This document shows positions 33,056 to 63,209 of a stretch of 64,000 nucleotides of DNA, piece by piece (position 1 is the stretch's first letter; every line of letters starts with the position of its first letter). Position numbers and translations under genes: made by a program. The stretch covers positions 1 to 64,000 of the forward strand of contig NZ_JAJALI010000001.1 of assembly GCF_020523795.1 (NCBI RefSeq), written 5' to 3'. Source of the stretch: Ancylobacter sp. Lp-2 (GTDB lineage Bacteria > Pseudomonadota > Alphaproteobacteria > Rhizobiales > Xanthobacteraceae). The notes beneath the pieces are model-generated. The model was not told the DNA's origin and made no database searches. It worked only from the letters and a program-made list of their open reading frames with translations.

Positions 33056-33103
33056 GGCGGGTGTCCTCTCGGCGCGATGGCGCCCACCCCTAAAATAATC
33101 GTA

Positions 33104-44959: not shown

Positions 44960-45050
<91 letters not shown>

Positions 45051-45282: not shown

Positions 45283-45723
45283 TCACAAAGAAGCCTTTCG
45301 CATGAAATGAAGACCGGGCAGCAATGCCGTGAAGCCCCACTTGGCATAGAAGGGTATCATTTCCTCCAGGCAGTACAGCTCGCGGTGCTTGATGTGGACG
45401 ATGGCGGGATCGTTCATCACGGTCTCCATCAGCAGACCGCCCAGCCCCGTATTGCGCCATGTGCTTTTGACGATGATGTCGAAGATCATCGCCTTGTAAA
45501 CACCGTCGCTCAGGACGCGGGCGAACGCGACGAGGTCGTCGCAATGCGGATCGATGAAGGCGAAGATGGGCCCGCCGGATTGCAGGATCTTCTCGACATC
45601 CGTTTTGGTGCGCCCCTTGGTCCACCACTCTGCTTGAAAGAGGCCTACCAACTGATCGACCTGCGAAGAGGTCAGGGATCGATGAAGAGCCAGTCGGCCC
45701 TTGTCATGCGAAACGGCGTTCAC
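45283..45723 (-). CDS. GNAT-family N-acetyltransferase
   Basis: 146 residues from a GTG start with GGGAGGG upstream. The acetyl-CoA loop lies in STWRNTGLGGLLMETVM (R-N-T-G-L-G pattern), preceded by VYKAMIFDIIVK. C-terminal EEMIPFYAKWGF is the usual beta-bulge segment. Substrate unknown. First gene after tRNA-Ser. The 230 bp between them contain no other gene. Confidence 0.85.
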   Translation of the reverse strand: MNAVSHDKGRLALHRSLTSSQVDQLVGLFQAEWWTKGRTKTDVEKILQSGGPIFAFIDPHCDDLVAFARVLSDGVYKAMIFDIIVKSTWRNTGLGGLLMETVMNDPAIVHIKHRELYCLEEMIPFYAKWGFTALLPGLHFMRKASL

Positions 45724-45775: not shown

Positions 45776-46813
45776 TCACGTGCCGTTTGCCGCTAGGGCC
45801 TTCAGATGAAAAAGCTTCTCTTCCGAAATCGGAACGCCGAAGCGCTCTGCATTGGCTCGGTTCCTGTACCTGCGCTCGCCGGGCAGACGTTCCTGCCCGG
45901 CGTCGAGAAGCCGGCCACACAACAGCGCGACACGCTGCGCGAACTGCGAATTTCCTCCGCGCCGGGGATCGATGACGATCAGCAATTGCCCGGCTTTTGG
46001 CGTCTGGGCTCCGACGCAATCGCCGAAATCGTTTTCGAACGAGAGCTGCCCACCGGTCAGGGCCCCCGCCATCAGCTCGACCATGAGTGCGATGGAGGAT
46101 CCCTTGTAGCCGCCAAAGGCGTTCAACGCCCCGCCGGCCAGAACCGCGTGGGGATCCGTGGAAGGGTTGCCGTCGCTGTCCACTCCCGTGCCGGGAGGAA
46201 GGGGAGTGTTCGCCAGGGCATGGAGCCTGACTTCGCCATTGGCCATCACACTTGTCGCCTGATCCACCACGAGCGGTTCGGCACCGGCGACCGGCGTCGC
46301 AAACGCCATGGGGTTCGTGCCGTAGACGGGCGATCGACCGCCATGCGGCACGACATTGGCGAGGCCGTTCACGAAGCTGATCGCCACAAGGCCCCGGCGC
46401 GCAAACGGTTCGACATCAGGCCACAGCGCGCTGAAATGATGGGAGTTGCGCGTGGCAACGATGGCGACCCCTGTGCTCTCCACGGCGCCGTCGATCGCCC
46501 TCGCGGCGGCTGCCAGGGCCGGCTGGGCAAATCCGTTCCGGGCGTCCACGCGAATGAAGGAAGGGCTGACGCCGACGATGTCCGGGACCGCCGTGCCATC
46601 GACCCACCCCGTTCTCAGCGATGCCACATAGCCGGGAATGCGGAATATGCCGTGACTGATCGCACCGTCGCGCTCGCAGCCGGCGCAGTTGGCGGCGAGA
46701 ATATCGGCGGTTGAAGGCGATGTTCCATAGCGGGAGAAAATATCGCTCAGAAGCGATTTCAGAGCGTGGAAATCCACACGGATCTCAGCGTGCTCGGCGG
46801 TCATTCCTGTCAT
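45776..46813 (-). CDS. Ldh-family NAD(P)H oxidoreductase (possible pyrroline-2-carboxylate reductase)
   Basis: 345 residues (alternative ATG 46804). Malate/L-lactate dehydrogenase superfamily: GCERDGAISHGIFRIPGYVASLRTGWVDG at the N-terminus, RNSHHFSALW around the catalytic His, and VYGTNPMAFATPVAGAEPLVVDQATS. Some members (DpkA) reduce delta1-pyrroline-2-carboxylate to L-proline. The nearby T3LHyp dehydratase-type gene makes that compound, so this role is likely but inferred. The gene ends 22 bp after the dimethylformamidase-like gene and is read with it. Confidence 0.85.
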   Translation of the reverse strand: MTGMTAEHAEIRVDFHALKSLLSDIFSRYGTSPSTADILAANCAGCERDGAISHGIFRIPGYVASLRTGWVDGTAVPDIVGVSPSFIRVDARNGFAQPALAAAARAIDGAVESTGVAIVATRNSHHFSALWPDVEPFARRGLVAISFVNGLANVVPHGGRSPVYGTNPMAFATPVAGAEPLVVDQATSVMANGEVRLHALANTPLPPGTGVDSDGNPSTDPHAVLAGGALNAFGGYKGSSIALMVELMAGALTGGQLSFENDFGDCVGAQTPKAGQLLIVIDPRRGGNSQFAQRVALLCGRLLDAGQERLPGERRYRNRANAERFGVPISEEKLFHLKALAANGT

Positions 46814-46835
46814 CGCTAATTGGACCTGGGGTTGA

Positions 46836-49046
46836 TCACCGCGGAACAGCTGGGTCGGTGTCGACATCGGGCGCTGTTTCGAGAAATTTGCGGAGGCAGT
46901 TTTCCAGAAGGCGGGACACGTTGTTCTCGTAGCCGTCATGAGACAGGCTGCCGCAAAACGTGATGGAGCCGACCGAAAACAAACCTCCGCCATTCCCGGC
47001 GAGGCCGTAGACGATGTTTGATCGGATGCCGCCGTAAGGTCGCGGACCGCCGTCGAAGACGCCGGGAAGCAGCAATTCTTCAAAGCTCGTTTCGAAGCTC
47101 GGCCCATGGCCTTCAGACGCGGCAACCACGGTGACGAAATCCGGCGTCCCAAGATCCGGGCTGGCCTGGTCGATCTCGAAGCCGGCAGCACCGCCGCCTG
47201 AAAGGCCGAAATCACCTATTCTCTGATCGGGCGGAATGCCCTCGAACAGAAACGCCAGCTCCGGTCGGAACGACCCTTCGGTGCGGAGGTAGTAGGTGCC
47301 CTCGAATGCGCCTTCCGCCGTGAACCCGACGCCGGCGACCTTTTGCGGGGGGATGCCGTTTCGACGCCAGAGCCCGCCATATTCGCCATCGAGCTGATTG
47401 TAATATTCGCCCGGCTGGCTGGCCCAGGTCCTGCCGCCTCCCTCCGCCCGGCGGATCTCGATGAGGTGGGGCTGACGCGGATCGCGGCCGATCTTCCAGT
47501 AGAAGCCGTTGCCGCCGAGGTACATCAGCCTGCCGCCCCCCTCCCTGTAGGAGATGAGAGCCTCGATCGTCCGGCGCGTATGATATTCAGGGTGGGTGCC
47601 CGTCAGAACGACGTCATAAGGGGTAAGAGCCGCCACACCCTCGCGGTCCAGATCTTCGTCGGTCAGGACGTCGAACCCAAAACCTTTGGCTCTCAGCCAG
47701 TCCGTGAGATGGGAATCCGCCGGGAAGCCGCGCATGCCGGAACCCTTCTCGTCGTGATAGACCAGATAGCCGGGGCGCATCGTCATGATCGGGCGCAGCC
47801 GGGACGACAGCGTTATGCCCGATCCGTCCGGGTGGCGGTTATAGGTCGAATAGCCGTAGGTACCGACGACATCCGGGTTATGGGGATAGGCTCCCCACTC
47901 TTTCACCCGCGCCTCCAGCGCACCGGCAAAATTGCCGCGCGCATGGTTGGCATAGGCCATGTAGGTGAAGGTGGGCGCCAGAAAGACGATCCTCTGCCGG
48001 GGCAAGGCAGGGTTGGGACCCACATAGAACGGGATCGTGTCCGCGCCGACCTCGTTGTCGATCGCGAGACCGTAGACGCCCGATGGCACTCCCGCCGGCA
48101 CGTCGACGGCGATGGTGGTTTCCCACTTGCAGTCGCTCAGATCGTCCGAATGAAAGGCGATGGCGGCATATTCATCGGGTGCGGTTTTCCAGTCCATGTT
48201 GCGGCCGGTCCAGCCGGATGAGCGAACCGCGCGCATCGGCATATTGATCAAGGTGAGGCGGCGCGAGGGGTCGATCTCGTCCGCCACCCACTCGCCGTCG
48301 CCGGGGCCGCTGAACCGCCAGCGTGCAAGTTCGCGAGTATCGGAGCCTGCTCCCTTCCGCGACCGGCATACCAGACGCGGCGCTTCGATCGAGCCGTTGA
48401 AGCACGCGTACGGATGACCGTTCCAGCCCGCCGCGAAACAGATGCGATCCACCTCACCGAGGAGATCCCGGAGCCCCTCCGGCGCCGCGAACCATTGCGA
48501 ATTCTTCTGGACTCCCACGACACAGACACGGGCGAAGACGCCCTCGTCACCGAAGTTGACCTCCAGCCTCGACCATTCATTCAGGTCGAGAGCGAGATCC
48601 AGCGCGACACGGGTGGGGTGCGGCCGCCGCGTTTCGAGGAACAGCGCTCCGCCATTGAGGACCAGGGCGACGCCTTTCGCGTCGTCGGAGTCCTGAAGCG
48701 AGAACACGGTCTGGTCGGCGGAACAGAGGAATGTCGGCCTGACGACAAGCTCCACCGTCAGGTCCCGCGCTTCCGGGATCGGCGGGATGGGCCCGATCGC
48801 GCAGGAGCCCAGATGGGCCTTCTGCTCCTTGGCGGCATAGCGCGGCGTCAAGCCGAATTCCACGTCTTCGCTCTTCATGCCTTGGCCGACCGGATTGGGG
48901 TCGCAGCAATCCAGCCTCACGACCTTTGCCGTAACGTCGCGGTCGCCGATCGATGAAATCTTGAACTCGAGCCGCTCTCCCGCTTTCGCACCGAGCGGGG
49001 CGACATAACCGATGAGCGCCGGCTGAGGGAATTCCGGAGTAGGCAT
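46836..49046 (-). CDS. N,N-dimethylformamidase large-subunit-like hydrolase
   Basis: 736 residues from ATG 49046 (MPTPEFPQPALIGYVAPLGAKAGE). An N-terminal beta domain is followed by a LamG-like lectin module (about 100-250) and the C-terminal catalytic region. Characterised dimethylformamidase uses a mononuclear iron held by two Tyr and one carboxylate. Equivalent candidates are Tyr residues in TFTYMAYANHA and YGYSTYNRH, and Glu in GTHPEYH. No small-subunit gene is adjacent. A physiological C-N bond substrate linked to hydroxyproline metabolism is inferred. Confidence 0.85.
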   Translation of the reverse strand: MPTPEFPQPALIGYVAPLGAKAGERLEFKISSIGDRDVTAKVVRLDCCDPNPVGQGMKSEDVEFGLTPRYAAKEQKAHLGSCAIGPIPPIPEARDLTVELVVRPTFLCSADQTVFSLQDSDDAKGVALVLNGGALFLETRRPHPTRVALDLALDLNEWSRLEVNFGDEGVFARVCVVGVQKNSQWFAAPEGLRDLLGEVDRICFAAGWNGHPYACFNGSIEAPRLVCRSRKGAGSDTRELARWRFSGPGDGEWVADEIDPSRRLTLINMPMRAVRSSGWTGRNMDWKTAPDEYAAIAFHSDDLSDCKWETTIAVDVPAGVPSGVYGLAIDNEVGADTIPFYVGPNPALPRQRIVFLAPTFTYMAYANHARGNFAGALEARVKEWGAYPHNPDVVGTYGYSTYNRHPDGSGITLSSRLRPIMTMRPGYLVYHDEKGSGMRGFPADSHLTDWLRAKGFGFDVLTDEDLDREGVAALTPYDVVLTGTHPEYHTRRTIEALISYREGGGRLMYLGGNGFYWKIGRDPRQPHLIEIRRAEGGGRTWASQPGEYYNQLDGEYGGLWRRNGIPPQKVAGVGFTAEGAFEGTYYLRTEGSFRPELAFLFEGIPPDQRIGDFGLSGGGAAGFEIDQASPDLGTPDFVTVVAASEGHGPSFETSFEELLLPGVFDGGPRPYGGIRSNIVYGLAGNGGGLFSVGSITFCGSLSHDGYENNVSRLLENCLRKFLETAPDVDTDPAVPR

Positions 49047-49156
49047 GTTCCACCACGGTAAGGCGTTGAACGAGGCTTGCCGACGGGAAGGCCGCGCGAA
49101 AATCGCCGACGCACCGCCGCCGCGAGTCATTCGTCAAACATCGAATGAAATAGAAT

Positions 49157-49168
49157 ATCGTATACGTT
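49157..49168. promoter_or_regulatory. GntR operator copy 1 (one mismatch)
   Basis: ATCGTATACGTT, one base off the palindrome ATCGTATACGAT. It lies about 110 bp before the dimethylformamidase-like gene, in the divergent region with the regulator. Confidence 0.6.
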
Positions 49169-49271
49169 TCTGGCACCTGTCAAGTTGCGGATCTCCGGTC
49201 GCGCGCCCATCTTAGCGCCACGAACGACGCCCGCGCGGCTCGCTGCCCATGGCGTGACCTTGCGATCCGAT

Positions 49272-49283
49272 ATCGAATACGAT
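49272..49283. promoter_or_regulatory. GntR operator copy 2 (one mismatch)
   Basis: ATCGAATACGAT, 40 bp before the regulator's own GTG start, a position for autorepression. Confidence 0.55.
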
Positions 49284-49323
49284 ACTCGATCGCTGCCCTT
49301 CCAAGGCAGGCTGGGAGATGTAA

Positions 49324-49989
49324 GTGCCACTTACCGCAATAGATTTGCCATCTCTCGGTTCGGCGCCGACCGCGTCCGACATTATCGCCAAGCACATTCG
49401 CGAAGCGATCGTCAGCGGAGCTTTCGACGAGGGAGAGCCTATCCGACAGGACGACGTCGCGAAGCTGTTCGATGTCAGCAAGATCCCTGTGCGGGAAGCG
49501 CTGAAACGGCTGGAGGCGGAGGGGCTTGTCGAGTTTCACCGCAATCGCGGAGCTGTCGTCGCGAGCCTTTCCGAGCCGGAGATCGCGCAGATCTTCGAGG
49601 TGCGCGCCATGCTGGAGTCAAGCGCACTGAAGCTTTCCGTGCCGCGCATGACCGAGAAGACCTTCCAGCGGGCCGGAGAATATTGCGAGGCCTTCGCGCG
49701 GGAGACAAATGTGGCGCGCTGGGCCGAACTCAACTGGCAGTTCCACTCCTCTCTCTACGAGGATGCGGATCGACCATTTCTCATGAATCTCATTCGATCC
49801 GTCAATGATCGGATCGAGCGCTATCTGCGGATACAACTCACGCTTTCGGGCGGAACCGGCGTCGACGACAAGGAGCATCGCCAGATACTCGCGGCCTGCC
49901 GGGAGAAGAATGCCGACAAGGCCGCCGCGTTGCTGCATCACCACATATCGAATGCCTGCGACTCCCTTCTGAGCCACCTGAAGAAATAA
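49324..49989 (+). CDS. GntR-family regulator (FCD domain) of the hydroxyproline-type cluster
   Basis: 221 residues, GTG start with GGGAGA upstream. The winged helix-turn-helix (about 18-75) reads ASDIIAKHIREAIVSGAFDEGEPIRQDDVAKLFDVSKIPVREALKRLEAEGLV. The FCD ligand domain follows with NWQFHSSLY and EHRQILAA metal-type His residues. It is divergent from the hydrolase-reductase unit and lies upstream of the dehydratase and transporter. Four ATCGTATACGAT-like palindromes flank these units and are its probable operators. Confidence 0.9.
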   Translation: MPLTAIDLPSLGSAPTASDIIAKHIREAIVSGAFDEGEPIRQDDVAKLFDVSKIPVREALKRLEAEGLVEFHRNRGAVVASLSEPEIAQIFEVRAMLESSALKLSVPRMTEKTFQRAGEYCEAFARETNVARWAELNWQFHSSLYEDADRPFLMNLIRSVNDRIERYLRIQLTLSGGTGVDDKEHRQILAACREKNADKAAALLHHHISNACDSLLSHLKK

Positions 49990-50169
49990 CCTGTGCGCCC
50001 AGGCGCTTGCATCGAGCGTAAGGCGCATCTCGGCCATAGGCCGCCCCTTCGCATCCGGCGATGGATGGCGCTAGCGATCCGTCAAGCTCGGGCCGCCGGC
50101 CAGTCCAGAACGATGGCGCATCTTGAAATTCTCCGCGCCTGACATTTCTGCGGTTGACGCCTTCGCATG

Positions 50170-50181
50170 ATCGTATACGAT
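50170..50181. promoter_or_regulatory. GntR operator copy 3 (perfect)
   Basis: ATCGTATACGAT followed by ATCTGAAAT, about 140 bp upstream of the dehydratase gene. Confidence 0.7.
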
Positions 50182-50319
50182 ATCTGAAATTCTTCAGTCA
50201 GGAATGAGGGTGGCCGCTTTTCGGTGCTTCGGAAGCCCGATGGGCCGCGCCGGTATGACTGGGCCCGCTTTGCAGCGTCCTTTTTGAGACAAAGCCCGAT
50301 AGGGAGTTGGAGATTCCGC

Positions 50320-51327
50320 ATGCAGTACGAGAGATCGTTGAGCACCGTTGAACTGCATACGTGCGGTGAAACATTCCGACTGGTGACTCAGGGGCTTCCG
50401 AAAATTCCCGGAAACACCATCGTCGAACGTCGCGCCTGGCTGCAGCAGAACGCAGATCAATATCGTCGCGCCGTCATGCTCGAACCTCGCGGCCACAAGG
50501 ATCTGTATGGCGGATACCTTACAGAGCCAGTGAGCGAGGACGCGGACTTTGGCGTGATCTTCCTGAACAACATGGGCTACAGCCCTCATTGCGGCCACGG
50601 CGTGATCGCCCTCGCGACGGCGGCCGTGGAACTGGGATGGGTCGAGCGCAGCTCACCTGAAACGCGGATCGGCATCGACGCTCCGTGCGGCTTCATCGAA
50701 GCCTTTGTCGAATGGGACGGGAAGAAAACCGGATCCGTGCGCTTCGTGAATGTGCCTTCATTCATCTTCAAGCGGGACGTGACGGTCGTCACGCCGAGCT
50801 TCGGCAAGGTAACGGGCGATATCGCCTATGGCGGCGCGACATATTTCTATGTCGACGGACATCCTCACGATATCGCCATTCGTGAGACGGATGTTCAGAA
50901 GATCATGCAGTTCGGATACGAAATCAAAACGGCGGTGAATGCGGCAATGCCCGTCGTCCACCCGGAAATTCCCGAATTCAACGATGTTTACGGCGTCATG
51001 GTCTATGGCGCTCCGCGTCACGAGGGATCGACCCAGGCCAATTGTTGCGTCTATGCCGACCGCGCGATCGACCGATCGCCGACAGGCTCGGGCACGGCGG
51101 GCCGGGTCGCCCAGTTGTATCTTCGTGGTGAGCTTTCGGCGTCAGAAACTTTGATAAATGAATCCATTATCGGGACAGTGTTCAAAGGACACGTCCTCAG
51201 TGAAACAAAGGTCGGCGAGTTTGATGCGGTGATCCCCGAAATCAGCGGCAACGCCTATATTTCGGGATTTGCAAACTGGATCATCGATGAAGAGGATCCT
51301 CTCGCTTACGGGTTTCTTGTCCAGTAA
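50320..51327 (+). CDS. Proline racemase superfamily; probable trans-3-hydroxy-L-proline dehydratase
   Basis: 335 residues. The first catalytic residue is C91 in MGYSPHCGHGVIAL. The second position is T255 in DRSPTGSGTAGR, where proline and hydroxyproline racemases have Cys. A Cys/Thr pair is the hallmark of trans-3-hydroxy-L-proline dehydratases, which form delta1-pyrroline-2-carboxylate. GGAG precedes ATG 50320. With the Ldh-family reductase the route would end at L-proline. Assignment by active-site residues; substrate untested. Confidence 0.85.
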   Translation: MQYERSLSTVELHTCGETFRLVTQGLPKIPGNTIVERRAWLQQNADQYRRAVMLEPRGHKDLYGGYLTEPVSEDADFGVIFLNNMGYSPHCGHGVIALATAAVELGWVERSSPETRIGIDAPCGFIEAFVEWDGKKTGSVRFVNVPSFIFKRDVTVVTPSFGKVTGDIAYGGATYFYVDGHPHDIAIRETDVQKIMQFGYEIKTAVNAAMPVVHPEIPEFNDVYGVMVYGAPRHEGSTQANCCVYADRAIDRSPTGSGTAGRVAQLYLRGELSASETLINESIIGTVFKGHVLSETKVGEFDAVIPEISGNAYISGFANWIIDEEDPLAYGFLVQ

Positions 51328-51387
51328 TCATTGCCGTTCATCGGGCGGAATACGATAGCGTCGGAAGGCAATTCCAGCCACTTCATT

Positions 51388-51399
51388 ATCGTATACGAT
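51388..51399. promoter_or_regulatory. GntR operator copy 4 (perfect)
   Basis: ATCGTATACGAT followed by ATCTCAGAT, 60 bp before the transporter binding-protein gene. The tail ATCT-A-AT is shared with copy 3. Confidence 0.7.
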
Positions 51400-51459
51400 A
51401 TCTCAGATACGCTTTTCCGTAAGCAGGGTCTGATTTCAATCAACGAGAAGGGAACAGAA

Positions 51460-52275
51460 ATGCGCGTCACCACACTTGCCTTCGCCGCGGCTTTGGCCGT
51501 ATCGGCCGCCGCGACCGCCCACGCCGACAAGCTGGACGACATCATCTCGGCCGGCACGCTTCGCTGCGCGGTCGTGCTCGATTTTCCGCCGATGGGCTCG
51601 CGGGACACCAGCAATAACCCGATCGGCTTCGACGTCGACTATTGCCTCGATCTCGCCAAGGCGCTCGGCGTGAAGGCGGAGATCGTCGAGACGCCCTTCC
51701 CGGACCGGATTCCGGCCCTCGTCTCGGGTCGCGTGGATATCGGCGTCGCCTCGACCTCGGATACGCTGGAGCGTGCCAAGACCGCCGGCTTCTCCATTCC
51801 CTACTTCGCCTTCACCAATGTCATCCTCACCAAGGCGGGCATCGGCATCGACAGCTATGAGACGCTGAAGGGCCGCAAGGTCGGCTCGACCGCCGGCGGC
51901 TACGAGGCGCTGGCGCTGGAAGCCGACGTCAAGAAGTGGAACGATCCGAAGGGTTCGTTCCGCGCCTATCAGACCCAGGCGGACGTGTTCCTGGCACTGG
52001 CGCAGGGCCAGATCGAGGCGACCGTCGTCACCTCCACCGTGGCCGCCGCCATCGTGAAGGAAGGCAAGTACAAGGGTCTCGTCATGGCCGGCGACGCCCC
52101 CTATGACATCGACTATGTCGGACTGATTGCACTGCGCCAGGAACAGGGCCTCCTCAATTACCTCAACCTGTTCGTCAACCAGCAGGTGCGTACCGGGCGC
52201 TACAAGGCGCTGTACGACAAGTGGATCGGCGGCGGACAGGTGCCCAATCTGACGGTTCCGGGCGTCTATCGCTGA
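51460..52275 (+). CDS. Polar amino-acid ABC transporter substrate-binding protein
   Basis: 271 residues. Signal peptide MRVTTLAFAAALAVSAAATAHA, then a PBP-II fold: LDDIISAGTLRCAVVLDFPPMGSRD, IGFDVDYCLDLAKALGVKAEIVETPFPDRIPALVSGRVDIGVAS. It is family 3 (HisJ/GlnH-like). GAAGGGAAC precedes the start. Context with the dehydratase suggests hydroxyproline or a related imino acid as ligand, which is inference. Confidence 0.9.
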   Translation: MRVTTLAFAAALAVSAAATAHADKLDDIISAGTLRCAVVLDFPPMGSRDTSNNPIGFDVDYCLDLAKALGVKAEIVETPFPDRIPALVSGRVDIGVASTSDTLERAKTAGFSIPYFAFTNVILTKAGIGIDSYETLKGRKVGSTAGGYEALALEADVKKWNDPKGSFRAYQTQADVFLALAQGQIEATVVTSTVAAAIVKEGKYKGLVMAGDAPYDIDYVGLIALRQEQGLLNYLNLFVNQQVRTGRYKALYDKWIGGGQVPNLTVPGVYR

Positions 52276-52303
52276 TCAAAAACTCCGGCGGCGGGCGCGA
52301 GCG

Positions 52304-52966
52304 ATGAACTACACCTTTCATTGGCGCCCGGCCTTCCGGGCCCTGCCGGATATGCTGTGGGGAGCCTTGGTGACGCTTGAGGTCGCCGTGCTCTCCATGG
52401 TGCTCGGCGTGTTCTTTGCCGTGCTTCTGGCACTGGCGTCCGGCTCGCGCTTCCGTGCGCTCCGGGCGTTCGCCACGAGCTGGGTGGAACTCGCCCGCAA
52501 CACGCCGGCGCTGTTCCAGATCTACATGGCCTATTTCGGCCTCGGCTCGCTGGGAATTTATCTCGACAGCTTCCCCGCGCTGCTCGCAGGCATCACCTTC
52601 AACAATGCCGGCTATCTCGCGGAAACCTTTCGCGGCGGCCTGCGCGCCGTGCCGCCGACACAGGTGCGCGCCGCCCGCTCGCTCGGCATGGGACCCGTCC
52701 AGGCGTTCCGGCTGATCGTTCTGCCGCAGATGTTCCGTGTGGTGTTCCATCCGCTCACCAACCAGATGGTGTGGGCAATCCTGATGACGTCGCTGGGCGT
52801 GGTGGTCGGATTGAACAACGATCTGACGGGCGTCACCCAGGATCTCAATGTCAAGTCGTTCCGGTCTTTCGAATTCTTCGCCATTGCCGCGGTCATTTAT
52901 TACCTGATCGCCAAGTTCGTTACCGGCTCGGCCCGCCTGATGGCGTGGCGGCTGTTCCGCTACTGA
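52304..52966 (+). CDS. Polar amino-acid ABC transporter permease 1
   Basis: 220 residues, HisMQ-type, about five helices. The conserved loop is ETFRGGLRAVPPTQVRAARSLGMGPVQAFRLIVLPQMFRVVFHPLTNQ. It lies 28 bp after the binding-protein gene and 11 bp before permease 2. Confidence 0.92.
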   Translation: MNYTFHWRPAFRALPDMLWGALVTLEVAVLSMVLGVFFAVLLALASGSRFRALRAFATSWVELARNTPALFQIYMAYFGLGSLGIYLDSFPALLAGITFNNAGYLAETFRGGLRAVPPTQVRAARSLGMGPVQAFRLIVLPQMFRVVFHPLTNQMVWAILMTSLGVVVGLNNDLTGVTQDLNVKSFRSFEFFAIAAVIYYLIAKFVTGSARLMAWRLFRY

Positions 52967-52977
52967 GGGAGGCACGG

Positions 52978-53646
52978 ATGTTCGACACCTCCCTTTTCGA
53001 GACCTCGTTCACTCTCAGCGACCTCTGGTTCATGCTGAAGGGCGCGGGCGTCACCCTTTCCATCACCTTCTGGGCGGTGCTGGGGGGAACGCTGCTGGGG
53101 CTGCTGTTTGGCTTGGCACGGGCCAGCGTGCCGTGGTGGCTGAACGCGCCGATCGGCTTCGTGCTCGACATCTTCCGCTCGGTGCCGCTGATCATCCAGT
53201 TCGTGCTGGCGAACTCGTTCAAGTCGATCGTCGGGCTGAACGTGTCGGCCTTCACGGTCGGCTGTGCGGTGCTGGCCGTCTATACCGCCGCCTTCTGTAC
53301 CGAGATTGTGCGCGCGGGCATTCTCGCCGTGCCGGCGACGACCCGGCGGGCGGCTCGCTCGCTCGGCATGAGCTGGCGGCAGGACCTGACCTCGATCGTG
53401 TTTCCGATCGCGCTGCGCGTCGCGCTGCCAAACTGGATCGGCCTGACGCTCGGCGTGATGAAGGACACCGCGCTGGTGCTGTGGATCGGCATCGTGGAGC
53501 TACTGCGGTCCTCGCAGATCATCGTCACCCGGATCCAGGAGCCGCTTTTCGTGCTCTCCATCGCCGGGTTGATCTACTTCCTCATGAGCTTCCCCATTGC
53601 CCGCCTCGGCGCACGGTTGGAGAAGAGGTGGCGCGAGAATGATTGA
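52978..53646 (+). CDS. Polar amino-acid ABC transporter permease 2
   Basis: 222 residues, HisMQ-type. The loop is EIVRAGILAVPATTRRAARSLGMSWRQDLTSIVFPIALRVALPNW. GGGAGG before ATG 52978 sets the start. Forms a heterodimer with permease 1. Its end overlaps the ATPase start by eight bases. Confidence 0.92.
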   Translation: MFDTSLFETSFTLSDLWFMLKGAGVTLSITFWAVLGGTLLGLLFGLARASVPWWLNAPIGFVLDIFRSVPLIIQFVLANSFKSIVGLNVSAFTVGCAVLAVYTAAFCTEIVRAGILAVPATTRRAARSLGMSWRQDLTSIVFPIALRVALPNWIGLTLGVMKDTALVLWIGIVELLRSSQIIVTRIQEPLFVLSIAGLIYFLMSFPIARLGARLEKRWREND

Positions 53647-54361
53647 GATCGAGAACGTTCATAAATCCTTCGGTGCTCTCGAAGTGGTCAAGGGCGTCAC
53701 CATGACCGTCGAGAAAGGCGAGGTGGTCTCGGTGATCGGCGGCTCCGGCTCGGGTAAGTCGACACTGCTGATGTGCATCAATGGACTGGAGCCGATCAAT
53801 TCCGGCCACATACTAGTCGACGGCACCGACGTGCATGCGCGCGGCACCGACATCAACAGGCTGCGCCGCAAGATCGGCATCGTCTTTCAGCAGTGGAACG
53901 CTTTCCCTCACCTCACGGTGCTGGAGAACGTGATGCTGGCGCCGCGCAAGGTGCTCGGCAAGCCGAAGGCCGAGGCCGAGGCGATCGCCGTCGAGAAGCT
54001 CTCCCATGTCGGACTGGGTGAGAAGCTGAAGGTCTATCCCTCCAAGCTTTCCGGCGGCCAGCAGCAGCGCATGGCGATCGCCCGCGCGCTCGCCATGTCG
54101 CCGGACTACATGCTGTTCGACGAAGTCACCTCCGCGCTCGATCCGCAGCTCGTCGGCGAGGTGCTGGATACTATGCGCATGCTTTCCTCGGAGGGCATGA
54201 CGATGATCGTCGTCACCCACGAAATCGCCTTCGCCCGCGAGGTGTCGGACCGCGTCGCTTTCTTCCACAAGGGCAAGATCCACGAGATCGGTCCTCCGGC
54301 CCAGGTGATCGGCAATCCGCAACAGCCGGAAACCGCTACCTTCCTCAAATCCGTCCTCTGA
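53639..54361 (+). CDS. Polar amino-acid ABC transporter ATP-binding protein
   Basis: 240 residues, GlnQ/HisP type. Walker A is GGSGSGKST, the Q-loop is FQQWNAFPHLTV, the signature is LSGGQQQRMAIARAL and Walker B is YMLFDEVTSALDP. The start MIEIENVHKSFG overlaps the permease stop, so translation is coupled. Last gene of the four-gene importer. Confidence 0.95.
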   Translation: MIEIENVHKSFGALEVVKGVTMTVEKGEVVSVIGGSGSGKSTLLMCINGLEPINSGHILVDGTDVHARGTDINRLRRKIGIVFQQWNAFPHLTVLENVMLAPRKVLGKPKAEAEAIAVEKLSHVGLGEKLKVYPSKLSGGQQQRMAIARALAMSPDYMLFDEVTSALDPQLVGEVLDTMRMLSSEGMTMIVVTHEIAFAREVSDRVAFFHKGKIHEIGPPAQVIGNPQQPETATFLKSVL

Positions 54362-54795: not shown

Positions 54796-55625
54796 TAGGC
54801 TCAGGACTCATAGCTAGTAGAGCACGGTGGCCGCAAGACCGATGGCGGACATGAAGACGGTCGGGCATCGATCGTAGCGGTTGGCGACGCGCCGCCAGTC
54901 CTTGAGCCTTCCGAGCATGATCTCGATGCGATTGCGTCGTTTGTAGCGGCGCTTGTCATATCGGATAGGCTGGGAGCGGGATTTTCGCCCTGGGATGCAG
55001 GGTTTGATACCCTTGGCCTGCAAGGCGTCGCGGAACCAGTCGGCGTCATAGCCCCGGTCGCCCAGGAGCCATTGAGCCTTGGGAAGGCTGTCCAGTAGAG
55101 CGGCGGCGGCGGTGTAGTCGCTGACCTGGCCCGCGGTCATGAACAGGCTGATCGGGCGTCCATTCGCATCCGTCACGGCGTGAAGCTTGGTGTTCATGCC
55201 GCCCTTGGTGCGTCCGATCAGTCGCCCGACATCCCCTTTTTACGCGCTGGCTCGAAGCCGTGCGGTGGGCCTTCAGATAGGTCGCGTCGATCATAACCGT
55301 TCGCCGTTCGCTCCCTGCGGCGGACAGGCCCTCCATCATACGGATGAAGATGCCTGCATCGCTCAAGCGTTTCCAACAATTATAAAGCGTCTTATGCGGC
55401 CCATAGGCCGCCGGGCGTCGCGCCAGCGCAGCCTGTTGCGGTTGACGAAAATGATCCCGCTTAGAACCCGACAATCATCCACGCGGGGCTTCCCGTGGCT
55501 CCTAGGGAAATAGGGCTGAAGCCGAGCAATCTGCTCGTCTATCAGCCAATACAGGTCGCTCATGTTCAAACTCCTGCGGAGTCTGAATCAGATCATGCGC
55601 CTCGTATCAATGGGTCCTGAGCCTA
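54796..55625 (-). mobile_element. IS5-family insertion sequence, degenerate
   Basis: About 830 bp bounded by 16-bp inverted repeats with one mismatch: TAGGCTCAGGACTCAT at 54796-54811 and the complement of 55610-55625. CTA occurs at both edges (54795-54797 and 55623-55625), compatible with a short target duplication. It encodes a DDE transposase on the minus strand, broken by frame changes. Confidence 0.85.
54814..55569 (-). pseudogene. IS5-family (IS427-like) transposase, frame-disrupted
   Basis: Three successive frames together make a full transposase. The first frame covers MSDLYWLIDEQIARLQPYFP to NRLRWRDA. The second has AAYGPHKTLYN and VMIDATYLKAHRTASS. The third has IGRTKGG, TKLHAVTDANGRP, LLGDRGYDADWF and KDWRRVANRYDRC, which includes the last DDE part. 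Frame breaks fall near 55411-55416 and at 55233-55242, the latter in an AAAAAGGGG run where IS427-type elements can use programmed frameshifting. The first break looks like a simple one-base loss, so the element is probably inactive. Confidence 0.85.
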
Positions 55626-56226: not shown

Positions 56227-56572
56227 CGGATACCCTCTCGCTGTCTACCTCAGGGGCGCGCATTCCAAACGCACCGCCCCGGATGGATCAGACCTCCATG
56301 AGCACATTACCTGGCGGGCGGCTCCACATATAAGCCAGTGCCAATTCTCAATGGAAAAACAGAGTGAATTCCTTGGCGGGGGCCATTCGCCGACACGCAT
56401 TCCAATTTGTTCAATTGGCACCTTGATCTATAGGCCAATTGCAAAGCCTAATATCTGTGCCTGCCTATTTTAACATCAACAATGCACAATTGGTGCTCTC
56501 TTCGAATGCCAATGTCCATCATCTGACCAGGCACGCAAGTTTTTGAGGCCTAACGGCCCGAGGGGAACACGG
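56227..56572. promoter_or_regulatory. Control region of the Liv-type operon
   Basis: About 345 bp without a gene, clearly AT-richer than its surroundings. It contains several CCAATT/AATTGG half-sites, including the 39-bp motif at 56402-56440, ahead of the substrate-binding protein gene. Confidence 0.6.
56402..56440 (+). promoter_or_regulatory. Putative MocR operator, copy 1
   Basis: CCAATT, 5 bases, AATTGG, then CACCTTGA and, 8 bases on, CCAATT. The same arrangement with identical spacing recurs at 63107-63145. TATAGG just inside it could be a -10 element. Confidence 0.65.
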
Positions 56573-57775
56573 ATGATCTCAAGACGTTCGCTTATCGCGC
56601 TCACATACGGAGCCTTCGCGCTATCCACGGCGACACAGGTCCATGCTGCCGAAGACATCACCATCGGCATGGCCGTGGCCTACTCGGGCTGGGTGGAGGC
56701 CTATGATGGTGAGGCCGCGAAGATGGCCCAGCTTTGGGTCGAGCAGGCCAACGCCAAAGGGGGCCTGCTTGGCAAGCCCATTAAGATCATTATTGGCGAC
56801 ACCAAGTCGGATCGGGTCGAAGGCGCGAAGGTTGGGCAAGAACTTGTCAGCAAGGGTGCCAATCTGCTCCTCGTCTCGGCGGATTACGATTTCGGCGCGC
56901 CGGCAGCGCTTCAGGCACAAAAAGCCGGCGTCATTTCGGTCTTTGTCGGCGCATCAGACCCCAAGGCGGGCGTGTTGGGCGTAGGCCCGTTGTCCTTCAC
57001 GGCAAACAATGCTGGCCAGCTCGAAGGCGCAATCATGGCGGACTGGGGCTTCCAGAAAAAGGGGCTACGCAAGGGCTACACTCTGGTCGACGAGGCCATC
57101 GAATACACGAAGTCCGTATGCGCTGGTTATGAATGGAAGTTTCCGCAGGTCGGCGGCACGATTGTCGAGCGGGATACGTTCAAGGGAGCCGATCCAACGA
57201 TCAGCTCTCAGATTACGCGGCTCACCAACAGCATCCGCAGCGACGGTGTCGACCACGTCATGCTCTGCTCGGTGAACCCCGGCGCGGCGAGCGCTGTCCG
57301 GCAGTTGCGCGCGGCCGGCATAAACCTGCCGATCTTCGGCTCGACGGGCATGGACGGCACCTATTGGCTGGCATCGGTGCCCGGCCTGAAGGATTTCTAT
57401 CTTCCGTCCCAGGCGTTGCCCGAAAATGACCGTCGTCCTGCAGTGAATGCCGTTTCTTCGGCGTTCAAGGAGAAGTACGGCGCCGCTCCGTCGACGCAAT
57501 ATGCCTACCCAATCTACGCTTTCCTCGACATGTGGGCGAAGGCCGTGACGGCTGCCAACACCACCGAGGGCGCCGAGGTCGTAGCCGGGCTGAACACGTT
57601 CAAGGATGAGTCGACAGTACTGGGGCCGCGAACCTTCACTCCCAAGCTGCACATCCAAATCGACATGCCGATGTTCATCACGTCCTACGCGGACAACAAG
57701 CAGTCGGCGATCGAGGAGTGGAGGATCAGCGGCACCATTCCGAACAACGTTCTATACCGCACGAAGGGCAACTGA
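56573..57775 (+). CDS. Branched-chain amino-acid-type ABC substrate-binding protein (LivJ-like)
   Basis: 400 residues. Export signal with twin Arg (MISRRSLIALTYGAFALSTATQVHA), then a type I periplasmic binding fold: EDITIGMAVAYSGWVEAYDGEAAKMAQLWVEQANAKGGLLGKPIKIIIGDTKSD. GAGGGGAA precedes the ATG. First gene of a complete five-gene Liv operon. Ligand probably an amino-acid derivative or cyclic amide, inferred from the hyuA neighbour. Confidence 0.9.
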   Translation: MISRRSLIALTYGAFALSTATQVHAAEDITIGMAVAYSGWVEAYDGEAAKMAQLWVEQANAKGGLLGKPIKIIIGDTKSDRVEGAKVGQELVSKGANLLLVSADYDFGAPAALQAQKAGVISVFVGASDPKAGVLGVGPLSFTANNAGQLEGAIMADWGFQKKGLRKGYTLVDEAIEYTKSVCAGYEWKFPQVGGTIVERDTFKGADPTISSQITRLTNSIRSDGVDHVMLCSVNPGAASAVRQLRAAGINLPIFGSTGMDGTYWLASVPGLKDFYLPSQALPENDRRPAVNAVSSAFKEKYGAAPSTQYAYPIYAFLDMWAKAVTAANTTEGAEVVAGLNTFKDESTVLGPRTFTPKLHIQIDMPMFITSYADNKQSAIEEWRISGTIPNNVLYRTKGN

Positions 57776-57928
57776 GCGTGCCGCGTGGCCCCTCTTGCTT
57801 TCCTTCATAAGGTAGCAAGAGGGGCATCCACGACAGTTCATGCAGAAGCGCGAAGGCACAATCACCTCGCGGCACAATGTCGAACGGCCACGATCTGTGC
57901 CGCTTCTGATGTCTTCGGAGTTCGCGAC

Positions 57929-58702
57929 ATGAATTACACTTTCGATATTGAACAGCCATTGCTCATGCGGGGCGATGGCAATAGCTCGGAACTGACGGCA
58001 CAGCACCTGACAGTGCGCTTTCAGGGGCTAGCAGCTATTTCGGATGTCAGCCTCACCCTGCATCGCCACGAAGTGTTAGGTCTGATCGGTCCGAATGGCG
58101 CCGGAAAGACAACTCTGGTCAACTGCCTGACAGGCTTTCAGCGGCCGACGGAAGGCCATGTGCTCGTCGGCCGAGAGCGGACCAGTGACTGGTCGCCCGT
58201 CGATTTCCGTGCCCGCGGCGTGGCACGAACGTTTCAGGCAGGTCGTCTGTTCAAGGATATGTCCATCCTCGAGAATGTAGAGGCAGGCGCTCTGGCACTT
58301 GGGCTAGGTCGCAGGCAGGCCGTCGAGCACGCCCGCGAACTCCTGGACTGGGTCGGGCTGAAGGCCGACCCCTACCAGAAGGCGGGAATGCTCGCCTATA
58401 CCGACCAGAGGCGCCTCTCGATCGCGCGTGCCATGGTCCTGTCGCCAGCCTTCGTATTGCTGGATGAGCCGGCGGCAGGCATGTCCGACGCGGAATGCGA
58501 AGACCTGATGGAGTTGATTTCCTCCATCCCCTCCCTGTTCACCTGTGGCGTGCTTCTGATCGAGCACAATATGCGGGTCGTGATGGGTATCTCCCACCAG
58601 ATTCACGTTCTCGACGGCGGATGCATCCTTGCAAAGGGAACGCCCGGGGAAATCCAGAATAACGAGGCTGTAATGGCAGCTTATCTCGGTATGGAGAGCT
58701 GA
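57929..58702 (+). CDS. Liv-type ABC ATP-binding protein (LivG-like)
   Basis: 257 residues. Walker A is GPNGAGKTT, the Walker B region is FVLLDEPAAGMSDAE and the H-loop is LLIEHNM. The C-loop reads AYTDQRRLSIARAM, so the LSGGQ core is diverged (Y-T-D-Q), as in other LivG proteins. GGAG lies 8 bases before the ATG. Its stop overlaps the next start by one base. Confidence 0.92.
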   Translation: MNYTFDIEQPLLMRGDGNSSELTAQHLTVRFQGLAAISDVSLTLHRHEVLGLIGPNGAGKTTLVNCLTGFQRPTEGHVLVGRERTSDWSPVDFRARGVARTFQAGRLFKDMSILENVEAGALALGLGRRQAVEHARELLDWVGLKADPYQKAGMLAYTDQRRLSIARAMVLSPAFVLLDEPAAGMSDAECEDLMELISSIPSLFTCGVLLIEHNMRVVMGISHQIHVLDGGCILAKGTPGEIQNNEAVMAAYLGMES

Positions 58703-59454
58703 TGTCCGCCCTGCTGGATATACAAGAACTTCACGTTCATTATAGCGACCTGGCCGCTATTCGTGGCGTGTCCCTCCATGTTGATGAGGGAGAGGTTGTT
58801 TGCCTTGTAGGGCCGAACGGCGCCGGCAAGTCGACCATGCTCGCGGCGGTGGCCGGTGGGGTGAAGCCGACATCCGGCAGCATCCGGTTCGATGGCGGAA
58901 GCCTCAGGAGTGTCCGGCCGGAGCAGATCGCGCGTCTCGGCGTGTCGCTCGTGCCGGAAGGTAGGCAAATTTTCGGGACGCTGACCGTCGAGGAAAATCT
59001 AAGGATCGGCGGCTACATATCCAGCGACAGGAAAGCCGCGGCATCGGATTTCGACCGGCTGCTCGTCACGTTCCCGCGCCTGAAGGAGCGCCTTGCCTAT
59101 CCGGCTGGCCGCCTCTCCGGCGGCGAGCAGCAGATGCTCGCCGTCGCCCGCGCCGTGATGACCCAGCCCCGACTGCTGCTCGTTGACGAGCCCTCGTTGG
59201 GTCTTGCGCCGCTGATCATCGAGCAGATCTACAAGACGCTGCTCGAACTGCGCGCCGAGCGAGGACTGACTCTGTTCATCAATGAACAGAGTTCTGCCCG
59301 CGTCCTCAAATATGCTGATCGGATTTACATTCTCCGGGGCGGCCAGATCCAGCTTGAAGGCCGCGCGAGCGACCTGCGCGACGGCGATGCGATCAGGAAA
59401 GCTTATTTTGGCTTCAGCGCCGGATCACAGCGGGCGGCGGAGAATGTCGCATGA
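58702..59454 (+). CDS. Liv-type ABC ATP-binding protein (LivF-like)
   Basis: 250 residues. Walker A is GPNGAGKST, the signature is LSGGEQQMLAVARAV and Walker B is LLLVDEPSLGLAP, typical LivF. It overlaps the genes on both sides (TGATG before, ATGA after), so translation is tightly coupled. Confidence 0.94.
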   Translation: MSALLDIQELHVHYSDLAAIRGVSLHVDEGEVVCLVGPNGAGKSTMLAAVAGGVKPTSGSIRFDGGSLRSVRPEQIARLGVSLVPEGRQIFGTLTVEENLRIGGYISSDRKAAASDFDRLLVTFPRLKERLAYPAGRLSGGEQQMLAVARAVMTQPRLLLVDEPSLGLAPLIIEQIYKTLLELRAERGLTLFINEQSSARVLKYADRIYILRGGQIQLEGRASDLRDGDAIRKAYFGFSAGSQRAAENVA

Positions 59455-60365
59455 TTTCATTCTTTCAAAACGTCATCGACGCTGTCGCGCTCGGCAGCAT
59501 ATATGCACTTGTAGCGCTCGGCATCGGCCTGATCTTTGGCATACTTCGCTTGATCAACTTCGCTCACGGCGACATGATCACTGTCGGTTGCTACGCACTG
59601 ATTGTTCCGTCCACCGATGCGGCCGCGCAACTGCTGATCGGTTCCTGGACGCCACTGGCTGCGATCGCTGCCATCGCCATCATTGTCCTGCTTGTGGCGC
59701 TCTCGACGGACGCATTGGTATTCAAGCATCTGCGCCGCGCGTCGCCGACCACACTGATGATCGCCTCCTTTGCGGTTAGCTACGTCACTCAGAACGCCCT
59801 GCTGATGGCATACGGCGCCCGCGCGAAGGGCGTCGATTTCTGGAGCGGCGTGAACGTTCAGATCGCCATCGGCGAGTTGCGGGTACCGTTGCTGCAGCTA
59901 ATCACCGTCGCCGTCACGTTTGCCCTGATGATGTTGCTGAACCTGTTCCTCCGATACACGCGCTATGGAATTCAAATGCGCGCCGCTGCGGAGGATTTCC
60001 GCATGGCGCAGTATATCGGCGTGCGCGGCAATATCGTCATCGGATTGGCTTTCGCCATCAGCGGCATGCTGGCCGCCACCGTTTCCCTGCTTTACGTCAC
60101 CCAGTCCGGGTCCCTGTCCATAACGATGGGGGTGCCACTGGTTCTCTTCGCCTTCGTCGCCGTAGTGATCGGCGGAATGGGCAACCTGCTGGGTTCGGTT
60201 GTGGGCGGCTTCCTGATCGGCATCTTGCTAACCATGCTCCAGGCCTACCTGCCACCGGATCTGCGCGCCTTCCGCGACGCATTCGCCTTCGCCTTCGTCA
60301 TTCTTGTCCTGCTCGTGCGACCTGCAGGACTCATCCCCGCCCGCAACACCATTGAACGCGTTTAG
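59451..60365 (+). CDS. Liv-type ABC permease (LivH-like)
   Basis: 304 residues, about eight helices. The N-terminus has VALGSIYALVALGIGLIFGILRLINFAHGDMI, the classic LivH opening, and the C-terminus has VVIGGMGNLLGSVVGGFLIG. ATGA overlap with the LivF-like gene. Confidence 0.94.
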   Translation: MISFFQNVIDAVALGSIYALVALGIGLIFGILRLINFAHGDMITVGCYALIVPSTDAAAQLLIGSWTPLAAIAAIAIIVLLVALSTDALVFKHLRRASPTTLMIASFAVSYVTQNALLMAYGARAKGVDFWSGVNVQIAIGELRVPLLQLITVAVTFALMMLLNLFLRYTRYGIQMRAAAEDFRMAQYIGVRGNIVIGLAFAISGMLAATVSLLYVTQSGSLSITMGVPLVLFAFVAVVIGGMGNLLGSVVGGFLIGILLTMLQAYLPPDLRAFRDAFAFAFVILVLLVRPAGLIPARNTIERV

Positions 60366-60378
60366 CGATGGGTACCAC

Positions 60379-61452
60379 ATGTACAGTTTTCTCGTCCGCT
60401 ATCAGACGCCCGTTCTACTGATCCTTGCACTCGGCGCGATCGTAGTATTTGGCACCCTCGCGGCGAACAACGCCGCCGTCTCACTGACGGAGATGCTGAT
60501 CCAAATGACGGTCGTCGTCGGACTTTATGTCTTCATCGGCAATTCCGGCATCGTGTCTTTCGGGCATATCGGTTTCATGTGTATCGGGGCCTATGCTGCT
60601 GCGTGGGCGTCGGCCGATCCGGCTTTCAAAGAGATCATGCTCGAAGGCCTGCCCCTTTTTCTGCGGGAGGGCCAGTTCCCCTTTCCCGTGGCCATGGCGG
60701 CGGCCATCGTCTTGCCGGCGGCCGCGGCGGCCCTGTTCGGCCTTGCCATCATGCGCCTGACCGGTATCGCCTCGTCGATCGCGACCTTCGCCTTCCTTAT
60801 CATCGTAAACAGCGTCTACTCCAACTGGAATTCGGTTACCGCGGGGGTGAGTTCGATCATCGGCATTCCCACGGTGGTGGGGCCGTGGACGGCCTTCGCC
60901 GTCGCCTCGGTCGCCATTCTCGTGGCCTATGTCTTCCAGACATCGCGCTATGGCCTGCTTCTGCGCGCCTCGCGCGATGACGAGGTGGCGGCGCGCGCCA
61001 GCGCGATCAATGTCATCGGCATGCGACTGCTGGCGTTTGTCCTCAGTGCCGCGCTGGTGGGTGCAGGCGGCGGCCTATATGCGCAGTTCCTTGGCATCCT
61101 GACTGTGGATTCCTTCTATCTAAGCCTGTCCTTTATCGCCATTGCGATGCTGGTCGTGGGCGGCATGTCGAGCTTGACGGGGGCGGTCCTGGGTGTCGTC
61201 GCCGTCACAGCTATCGTCCAGATATTGCGGGCGGCAGAACGTGGTATCCCTGTTGGCTCGATGACATGGGCCTTGCCGTCGGGTAGCCAGGAACTGGGAC
61301 TGGGTATTCTGCTGGCCGTCATCCTGATCTACCGACCGACAGGATTGAGCGGCGGACAGGAAGTCAGGCTTCCGGTCCGCCCCTCGTCCGCTGCCGCGAA
61401 AGAGCAGGCAGCCATCGACAATCGCATCCTTGCGGCTCGCCAGCGATCCTGA
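60379..61452 (+). CDS. Liv-type ABC permease (LivM-like)
   Basis: 357 residues. GLYVFIGNSGIVSFGHIGFMCIGAYAAA and the C-terminal VVGGMSSLTGAVLGVVAVTAIVQILR are LivM landmarks. ATG 60379 is 14 bp after the LivH-like stop. A hydrophilic tail follows the last helix. Last gene of the operon; convergent with the MocR-type gene 50 bp further. Confidence 0.93.
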   Translation: MYSFLVRYQTPVLLILALGAIVVFGTLAANNAAVSLTEMLIQMTVVVGLYVFIGNSGIVSFGHIGFMCIGAYAAAWASADPAFKEIMLEGLPLFLREGQFPFPVAMAAAIVLPAAAAALFGLAIMRLTGIASSIATFAFLIIVNSVYSNWNSVTAGVSSIIGIPTVVGPWTAFAVASVAILVAYVFQTSRYGLLLRASRDDEVAARASAINVIGMRLLAFVLSAALVGAGGGLYAQFLGILTVDSFYLSLSFIAIAMLVVGGMSSLTGAVLGVVAVTAIVQILRAAERGIPVGSMTWALPSGSQELGLGILLAVILIYRPTGLSGGQEVRLPVRPSSAAAKEQAAIDNRILAARQRS

Positions 61453-62959: not shown

Positions 62960-63209
62960 GGCAGGACGTCTCGGTCTGGCGGCATATGTCAACGGGTACG
63001 GTCGAGGGGCGTCACGCTCCGGGGAACCCGACCCAAGGGATACAAAGCCCTCGGACCTTCGGCGAGGCCAATTATGGCCAAAACAATCACATGACAAGAT
63101 CGAAGTCCAATTCATGCGATTGGCGCCTTGAGGTTAAGTCCAATTATGCGCTCTAAATTTGACATTGGTTTTCGAGCGAATAGCCGGCGACCCAAAAAAG
63201 CGAGGGAAT
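62960..63209. promoter_or_regulatory. Divergent MocR-hyuA control region
   Basis: 250 bp with no gene. The half nearer hyuA is AT-rich and holds the second 39-bp CCAATT motif plus an extra half-site pair (GGCCAATTATGGCC at about 63066-63079). Confidence 0.6.
63107..63145 (+). promoter_or_regulatory. Putative MocR operator, copy 2
   Basis: CCAATT, 5 bases, GATTGG, then CGCCTTGA and, 8 bases on, CCAATT. Spacing is identical to the copy at 56402. It lies 65 bp before the hyuA start. Confidence 0.65.

Follow-up and report, generated by a model that had tools for sequence, protein, structure and literature searches.

A probable hydroxyproline-releasing hydrolase of the DMFA2_C family in a conserved, palindrome-linked trans-3-hydroxy-L-proline gene cluster of Ancylobacter sp. 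Lp-2

The first 64,000 nucleotides of contig NZ_JAJALI010000001.1 from Ancylobacter sp. Lp-2 (referred to hereafter as the window) contain a gene cluster that very probably forms a regulon for converting trans-3-hydroxy-L-proline (T3LHyp) to proline. The cluster also carries a gene for a DMFA2_C hydrolase, and we propose that this enzyme probably acts on N-acyl or aminoacyl hydroxyproline to release the free imino acid, an extra first step in a GntR-linked T3LHyp regulon. In the proposed route an ATP-binding cassette (ABC) importer with an SBP_bac_3 binding protein would take up free and N-blocked hydroxyproline, its presumed ligands. In its presumed substrate, N-acyl (or aminoacyl) hydroxyproline, the hydrolase would then split the amide linkage to the ring nitrogen. 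The T3LHyp dehydratase (T3LHypD) would dehydrate the freed imino acid to delta1-pyrroline-2-carboxylate, which the Ldh_2 enzyme would reduce to L-proline. The genes and the operator-like sites related to the palindrome TATCGTATACGATA are as follows.

45283..45723, minus strand: GNAT N-acetyltransferase, 146 amino acids, GTG start (PF13508 30.0 bits, cut-off 27; PF00583 27.9 bits, cut-off 20.7)
45776..46804, minus strand: Ldh_2 (MLD2) reductase, probable delta1-pyrroline-2-carboxylate reductase, presumed start ATG 46804 (PF02615 307.8 bits)
46836..49046, minus strand: DMFA2_C hydrolase, predicted N-acyl-hydroxyproline amidohydrolase, start ATG 49046 or 49130 (PF20254 277.9 bits, cut-off 27)
49156..49169: operator-like palindrome 5' of the hydrolase row, 2 mismatches to TATCGTATACGATA
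49271..49284: operator-like palindrome 5' of gntR, 1 mismatch
49324..49989, plus strand: GntR/FCD regulator (PF07729 86 bits; PF00392 60.2 bits)
50169..50182: operator-like palindrome 5' of the T3LHypD gene, 1 mismatch
50320..51327, plus strand: T3LHypD, proline-racemase family, Cys91/Thr255 (NF045511 636.9 bits, cut-off 540)
51387..51400: operator-like palindrome 5' of the importer, exact
51460..52275, plus strand: substrate-binding protein, SBP_bac_3 family (PF00497 107.3 bits)
52304..52966, plus strand: ABC permease, amino acid type (PF00528 63.7 bits; TIGR01726 92.3 bits, cut-off 42.2)
52978..53646, plus strand: ABC permease, amino acid type (PF00528 54.2 bits; TIGR01726 64.3 bits, cut-off 42.2)
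53639..54361, plus strand: ABC ATPase, amino acid type according to its best-scoring models (PF00005 123.3 bits)

A first-pass annotation had assigned the dehydratase, Ldh, importer and hydrolase genes to one regulon, and all of them are present where it placed them. Its gene set was real but its span too short, the GNAT gene at 45283-45723 having been overlooked; the leftward row reads hydrolase-Ldh_2-GNAT, with the GNAT gene terminal. The Cys/Thr pair ascribed to the proline-racemase-family protein is borne out, with Cys91 lying within SPHCGHG and Thr255 within DRSPTGSG (numbered from ATG 50320), and the protein exceeds the curated NF045511 equivalog cut-off. The nearest solved relative of the Ldh_2 protein is delta1-piperideine-2-carboxylate reductase (1wtj/2cwf/2cwh, 389 bits; next match 145 bits). 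Assignment as a malate/lactate/ureidoglycolate, sulfolactate or related dehydrogenase was rejected, as none of the five NCBIfam equivalogs listed reached its cut-off (best 168.3 against 336 bits). MLD2 members from dehydratase neighbourhoods are reported to reduce proline ketimine (PMC4113996). The grouping of dehydratase, reductase and importer as a single regulon is well supported by homology and by conserved context.

Sequence searches placed the hydrolase closest, among solved structures, to N-acetyl-(R)-beta-phenylalanine acylase (8huy, 568 bits, residues 14-725), with the large subunit of N,N-dimethylformamidase second (323 bits); these were the only two kinds of family member that turned up with both a solved structure and a named activity. 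Homology to the acylase is full-length, and its entries (8huy, 8i59, 8i5a) contain a single kind of chain. The predicted structure of the hydrolase (mean pLDDT, a per-residue confidence score, 76.7; predicted template modelling (TM) score 0.83) matched 8huy with a Foldseek TM of 0.85, 42% identity and Z of 45.4 over 675 residues, and the dimethylformamidase large subunit 6lvb with a TM of 0.80, 29% identity and Z of 41.5. In the Paracoccus dimethylformamidase the iron ligands are Y399, Y440 and E521, and N547 and E657 are catalytic (PMC7686228). Read off the alignment, the ligands correspond to Y368, Y405 and E490 of the hydrolase, and the catalytic residues to N516 and E627 (hydrolase numbering follows P0001, whose start precedes ATG 49046 by three residues). 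These five residues are the same in all 80 hydrolase homologues. We regard the hydrolase as a predicted metal-dependent amidohydrolase with the dimethylformamidase site of two Tyr and one Glu, the metal being putative.

The earlier label "dimethylformamidase-like" was right as to the Tyr/Tyr/Glu ligands but loose as a name, since identity is 42% to the acylase and about 30% to dimethylformamidase. The fold, both Tyr and the Glu ligand, and the catalytic Glu and Asn are shared with 6lvb, yet the hydrolase is only 29-30% identical to it. As the first-pass annotation held, no small-subunit gene adjoins the hydrolase: the gaps of 31 bases on the Ldh_2 side and 193-277 bases (according to start) on the gntR side are too short to encode one, although distant copies in the genome were not searched for. 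The dimethylformamidase large subunit is inactive alone (PMC7686228). Identification as a true dimethylformamidase was dropped on the lower similarity and the missing adjacent subunit. In annotated plasmid records, members of the family carry the label "N,N-dimethylformamidase beta subunit family domain-containing protein".

Five hydrolases linked to T3LHypD carry distinctive residues. E581 is specific to them (Q in 75 of 75 others), and they have F602 where 99% of the other 75 have W, I628, adjoining the catalytic Glu, where 91% have L, and F658 where 85% have P. Such substitutions might be expected of a specialised member of the family.

The palindrome TATCGTATACGATA precedes the hydrolase row, gntR, the T3LHypD gene and the importer. 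At three or fewer mismatches the window holds 5 matches, against 0.39 expected and a maximum of 2 in 100 shuffles; the fifth (3 mismatches, at 33097) lies outside the cluster. The 5.59 Mb genome has 9 places with at most two mismatches, 4 of them in the cluster, and all 3 places with at most one mismatch fall there; a reversed-pattern control gave 1 place at two or fewer mismatches. Six conserved clusters, described below, have 3 to 7 sites each at three or fewer mismatches, and seven distant T3LHypD loci have one in total, with 3 mismatches. No site at two or fewer mismatches was found in the 1,463,416 bases of 78 further hydrolase loci (L053-L130).

We infer that the GntR protein binds the palindrome as a putative operator. 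GntR orthologues (69-72%) adjoin Ldh genes on three Rhizobium plasmids, each with the exact palindrome 5' of Ldh, and on two of these an annotated proline-racemase-family gene lies across the palindrome from Ldh. In Paracoccus pantotrophus (L153, 4324-9681) the neighbours of a GntR with 70% identity are an ornithine cyclodeaminase (OCD)-family gene and a T3LHypD that belongs to a second family (NF047722, 635.5 bits; cut-off 550), with a palindrome of 2 mismatches. That group also adjoins a gene annotated hpbD, 4-hydroxyproline betaine 2-epimerase. The closest known kind of regulator is HypR, the GntR repressor of hydroxyproline genes in Sinorhizobium meliloti (PMC5343134, PMC6608401). Another GntR protein, from the Rhizobium etli cluster (173 amino acids as annotated; a different protein from S. 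meliloti HypR) is 23% identical to the one described here over 156 residues.

Conservation of the neighbourhood was examined from both enzymes. A scan of species genomes gave at least 408 relatives of the hydrolase, the best 80 of which were taken with fetched flanks. Among these 80, Agrobacterium genomosp. 13 and Shinella lacus (hydrolase 65-66% identity) have the entire cluster; the fetched stretches of the other 78 contained no T3LHypD, save a 41% partial match at the edge of L130. A plasmid collection added Pararhizobium sp. A13 (hydrolase 67%) and three near-identical records of Agrobacterium vitis, and a family sample added a second genome of the genus Shinella with the cluster. The T3LHypD comparison, with the window proteins as reference, covered 13 distinct loci (14 were run; L144 is a duplicate). 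All six loci with T3LHypD identity of at least 79% have GntR (78-100%), Ldh_2 (68-100%), GNAT (70-100%), the importer and the palindrome TATCGTATACGATA. The hydrolase is present in five of the six, the exception being the A. vitis plasmid, and in none of the seven loci with T3LHypD at 49-72% identity. Wherever the six have it (5/5), it adjoins Ldh_2 and lies just 3' of a palindrome. The refuting condition set by the first-pass annotation, a hydrolase neighbourhood without conservation, therefore did not refute its reading. T3LHypD matches at E 1e-110 or better occurred in 2 of 397 genomes of the order (read from a list at 1e-50), 2 of 391 of the window's family and 2 of 394 of the Agrobacterium locus's family, and a 66% hydrolase in 2 of 21 genomes of the Shinella locus's genus, that locus counted. 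In such wide samples co-occurrence is too rare for statistics.

Several additional genes were seen at these loci. The Agrobacterium and Shinella clusters contain a second proline-racemase-family gene (L051, 20066-21094; L052, 20009-21037), that of L051 passing the second T3LHypD model (NF047722, 636.4 bits; cut-off 550), and L051 also contains an LhpI reductase (NF045512, 430.8 bits; cut-off 400). In six alphaproteobacterial loci (L064, L073, L076, L087, L106 and L108) a different Ldh_2 gene (31-34% identity) lies directly 3' of the hydrolase; no T3LHypD was found in the fetched stretches of these six.

The window and A. vitis group apart from the remaining four in both the GntR and the Ldh_2 tree (100/100 each). 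The T3LHypD tree does not resolve the window/A. vitis corner, and there the row nearest to the window is an A. vitis copy (90%). With 28 rows, the hydrolase tree places the five T3LHypD-linked members in a single clade (100/100), within which the other four group to the exclusion of the window. As this split matches the Ldh_2 and GntR trees, the hydrolase was probably ancestral to the cluster, and its loss in A. vitis is the simplest reading. The occurrence of T3LHypD in just 2 of 391 genomes of the family, together with a DDE transposase stretch at 54817-55197, makes horizontal acquisition of the cluster likely.

The A. vitis locus lacks the hydrolase precisely between Ldh_2 and GntR. Its leftward row reads Ldh, GNAT, solA, an M20 amidohydrolase in fourth place and then a binding-protein gene; on its right side an M20 dipeptidase-like gene is flanked by two T3LHypD genes, and the locus also holds an oligopeptide importer and a gamma-glutamyltransferase. 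The first of these M20 proteins has relatives among the N-acyl-amino-acid hydrolases: it scored 329.9 bits with TIGR01891 (cut-off 153.75) and 330.3 bits, under the cut-off of 550, with the model for N-acetyl-diaminobutanoate deacetylase, and related structures have been solved for, among others, IAA-amino-acid hydrolase and N-alpha-acyl-glutamine aminoacylase. Two of the seven distant loci, L133 and L135 (Paraburkholderia sprentiae and Rhizobium leguminosarum), have a prolidase-like amidohydrolase near T3LHypD. By direct comparison the P. sprentiae protein is close to 3feq/3n2c, named prolidase (501 bits), and the R. leguminosarum protein is 43-47% identical to that of P. sprentiae. Prolidases of the 3feq/3n2c kind also cut N-acyl-prolines. 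Three unrelated families of amide hydrolase therefore occur next to the dehydratase, which suggests that the DMFA2_C hydrolase acts on N-acyl or peptidyl hydroxyproline and releases the free imino acid.

The first-pass annotation had suggested that the hydrolase may act on an N-substituted or amide precursor and so yield the imino acid. This reading is partly supported, being favoured by the acylase homology, the gene context, the palindrome and the M20 and prolidase-like hydrolases. An N-methyl (betaine) precursor appears less likely, because both characterised relatives cleave amides and because four of the five clusters with the hydrolase (all but the window), as well as that of A. vitis, contain in addition a SolA-like gene, whose product is of the N-methyl-amino-acid-oxidase kind. 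A search of the window genome for solA gave no match at E 1e-30, though it was run without a positive control and so does not establish absence. Dimethylformamide is a tertiary amide, as N-acyl-proline would be, which is compatible with release from an N-acyl form and proves nothing.

The leaving group could instead be an amino acid, the hydrolase then acting within the same pathway as an aminoacyl or cyclic-dipeptide amidase on small hydroxyproline peptides. The prolidase-like genes of two of the seven distant loci would fit this, as would the M20 dipeptidase-like gene, oligopeptide importer and gamma-glutamyltransferase of A. vitis, the peptidase families in the neighbourhood network of Bacilli t3HypDs (PMC4113996), and the genes resembling peptide ABC transporters (recognised by eye) that often neighbour the wider hydrolase family. 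We consider it possible but rather unlikely, as the hydrolase's nearest characterised relative is an acylase of N-acetyl amino acids and no peptidase, and the cluster's importer is of the amino acid type.

Several observations weigh against release of hydroxyproline by this hydrolase. The predicted activity rests on homology, residues and gene context, and the substrate of the nearest characterised acylase is a secondary amide, an N-acetyl beta-amino acid, rather than a proline. Eight of the 13 distinct T3LHypD loci lack the hydrolase, which is thus dispensable for T3LHyp use, and sister hydrolases (51-52%; Achromobacter, Herbaspirillum) have no T3LHypD within the 10 kb flanks that were fetched. 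Counted by record name and kinship, the six conserved loci represent only four genera (the window's, Agrobacterium twice, Shinella twice and Pararhizobium). The replacement argument comes from a single locus, that of A. vitis, represented by three near-identical records. M20 relatives occur frequently on rhizobial plasmids (59 records at E 1e-100), so that finding them at this locus could be a coincidence, and in five of the seven distant loci the queries used caught neither an M20 nor a prolidase-like gene. Finally, the racemase-family proteins on the two Rhizobium plasmids score under every T3LHypD cut-off, and the regulator's role may therefore extend beyond T3LHyp.

The loci without the hydrolase and the sister enzymes without a nearby T3LHypD would also suit a hydrolase serving another nutrient, an unrelated amide that co-occurs with hydroxyproline, with the regulator merely shared. 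This seems improbable given the constant position of the gene beside Ldh_2 and just 3' of a palindrome (5/5), the clade-specific E581 and F602, which suggest a specialised member, and the agreement of the hydrolase tree with the cluster trees. That the whole cluster serves 3-hydroxypipecolate, the six-membered ring analogue, with Ldh_2 reducing delta1-piperideine-2-carboxylate as its nearest solved relative does, is very hard to credit when T3LHypD lies well above the T3LHyp equivalog cut-off and MLD2 reductases from t3HypD neighbourhoods reduce proline ketimine (PMC4113996).

The GNAT gene, present in six of six conserved clusters (orthologues 69-74% in the five related ones), is an unexplained companion. 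In a fold search with a model of only moderate confidence (pLDDT 68.6), the 50 matches listed were ordinary small-molecule GNATs with 3s6f at the top; they included no proline-analogue acetyltransferase, which excludes nothing. Conceivably, and we would put little weight on it, the GNAT enzyme N-acetylates hydroxyproline or a toxic proline analogue for protection or storage and the hydrolase (M20 in A. vitis) deacylates the product on induction, a reversible N-acyl imino-acid cycle. On an Agrobacterium tumefaciens plasmid a GNAT orthologue (75%) adjoins solA, with no T3LHypD annotated in the fetched stretch.

Directly beside the cluster in the window is a tRNA-Ser(CGA) gene at 44960-45049, with the DDE transposase stretch on the other side. 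No repeat of the tRNA 3' end was found within the window, so tRNA-targeted insertion of a possible island is not supported. ABC transporter genes of the branched-chain amino acid type (56543-61452) also adjoin the cluster, followed by a GntR-aminotransferase fusion protein at 61502-63115. The transporter genes were dropped as part of the regulon, the window search having found no palindrome nearby.

T3LHyp catabolic regulons are already known. In that described in PMC4113996 (t3HypD/LhpH with an OCD- or MLD2-type delta1-pyrroline-2-carboxylate reductase), the same Cys/Thr dehydratase, an MLD2 reductase and an importer share one neighbourhood; the present cluster adds the DMFA2_C hydrolase and the GNAT protein under a common palindrome. 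A search of its text found neither dimethylformamidase nor any word starting with formamidase, acylase, N-acyl or deacylase. The HypR regulon of S. meliloti and other Proteobacteria likewise places hydroxyproline genes under a GntR-family regulator and also holds the alternative epimerase hypY, the malate-dehydrogenase-like hypS and, in some genomes, ornithine cyclodeaminase (PMC5343134); the available part of that account names no DMFA2_C member. Among the open-licence papers searched we found none placing a DMFA2_C hydrolase in hydroxyproline catabolism, none linking dimethylformamidase to rhizobial amino-acid ABC-transporter gene clusters, none bringing together a proline racemase, hydroxyproline, an acylase and a GntR regulator, and none on the beta-phenylalanine acylase. 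The hydrolase-bearing cluster is a new form of such a regulon. While the named substrate of the related acylase is an N-acetyl beta-amino acid, the hydrolase described here is set among genes of hydroxyproline catabolism, and the conserved, palindrome-linked cluster gives one clade of the family a concrete candidate substrate class. It also points to N-blocked hydroxyprolines as a possible natural nutrient.

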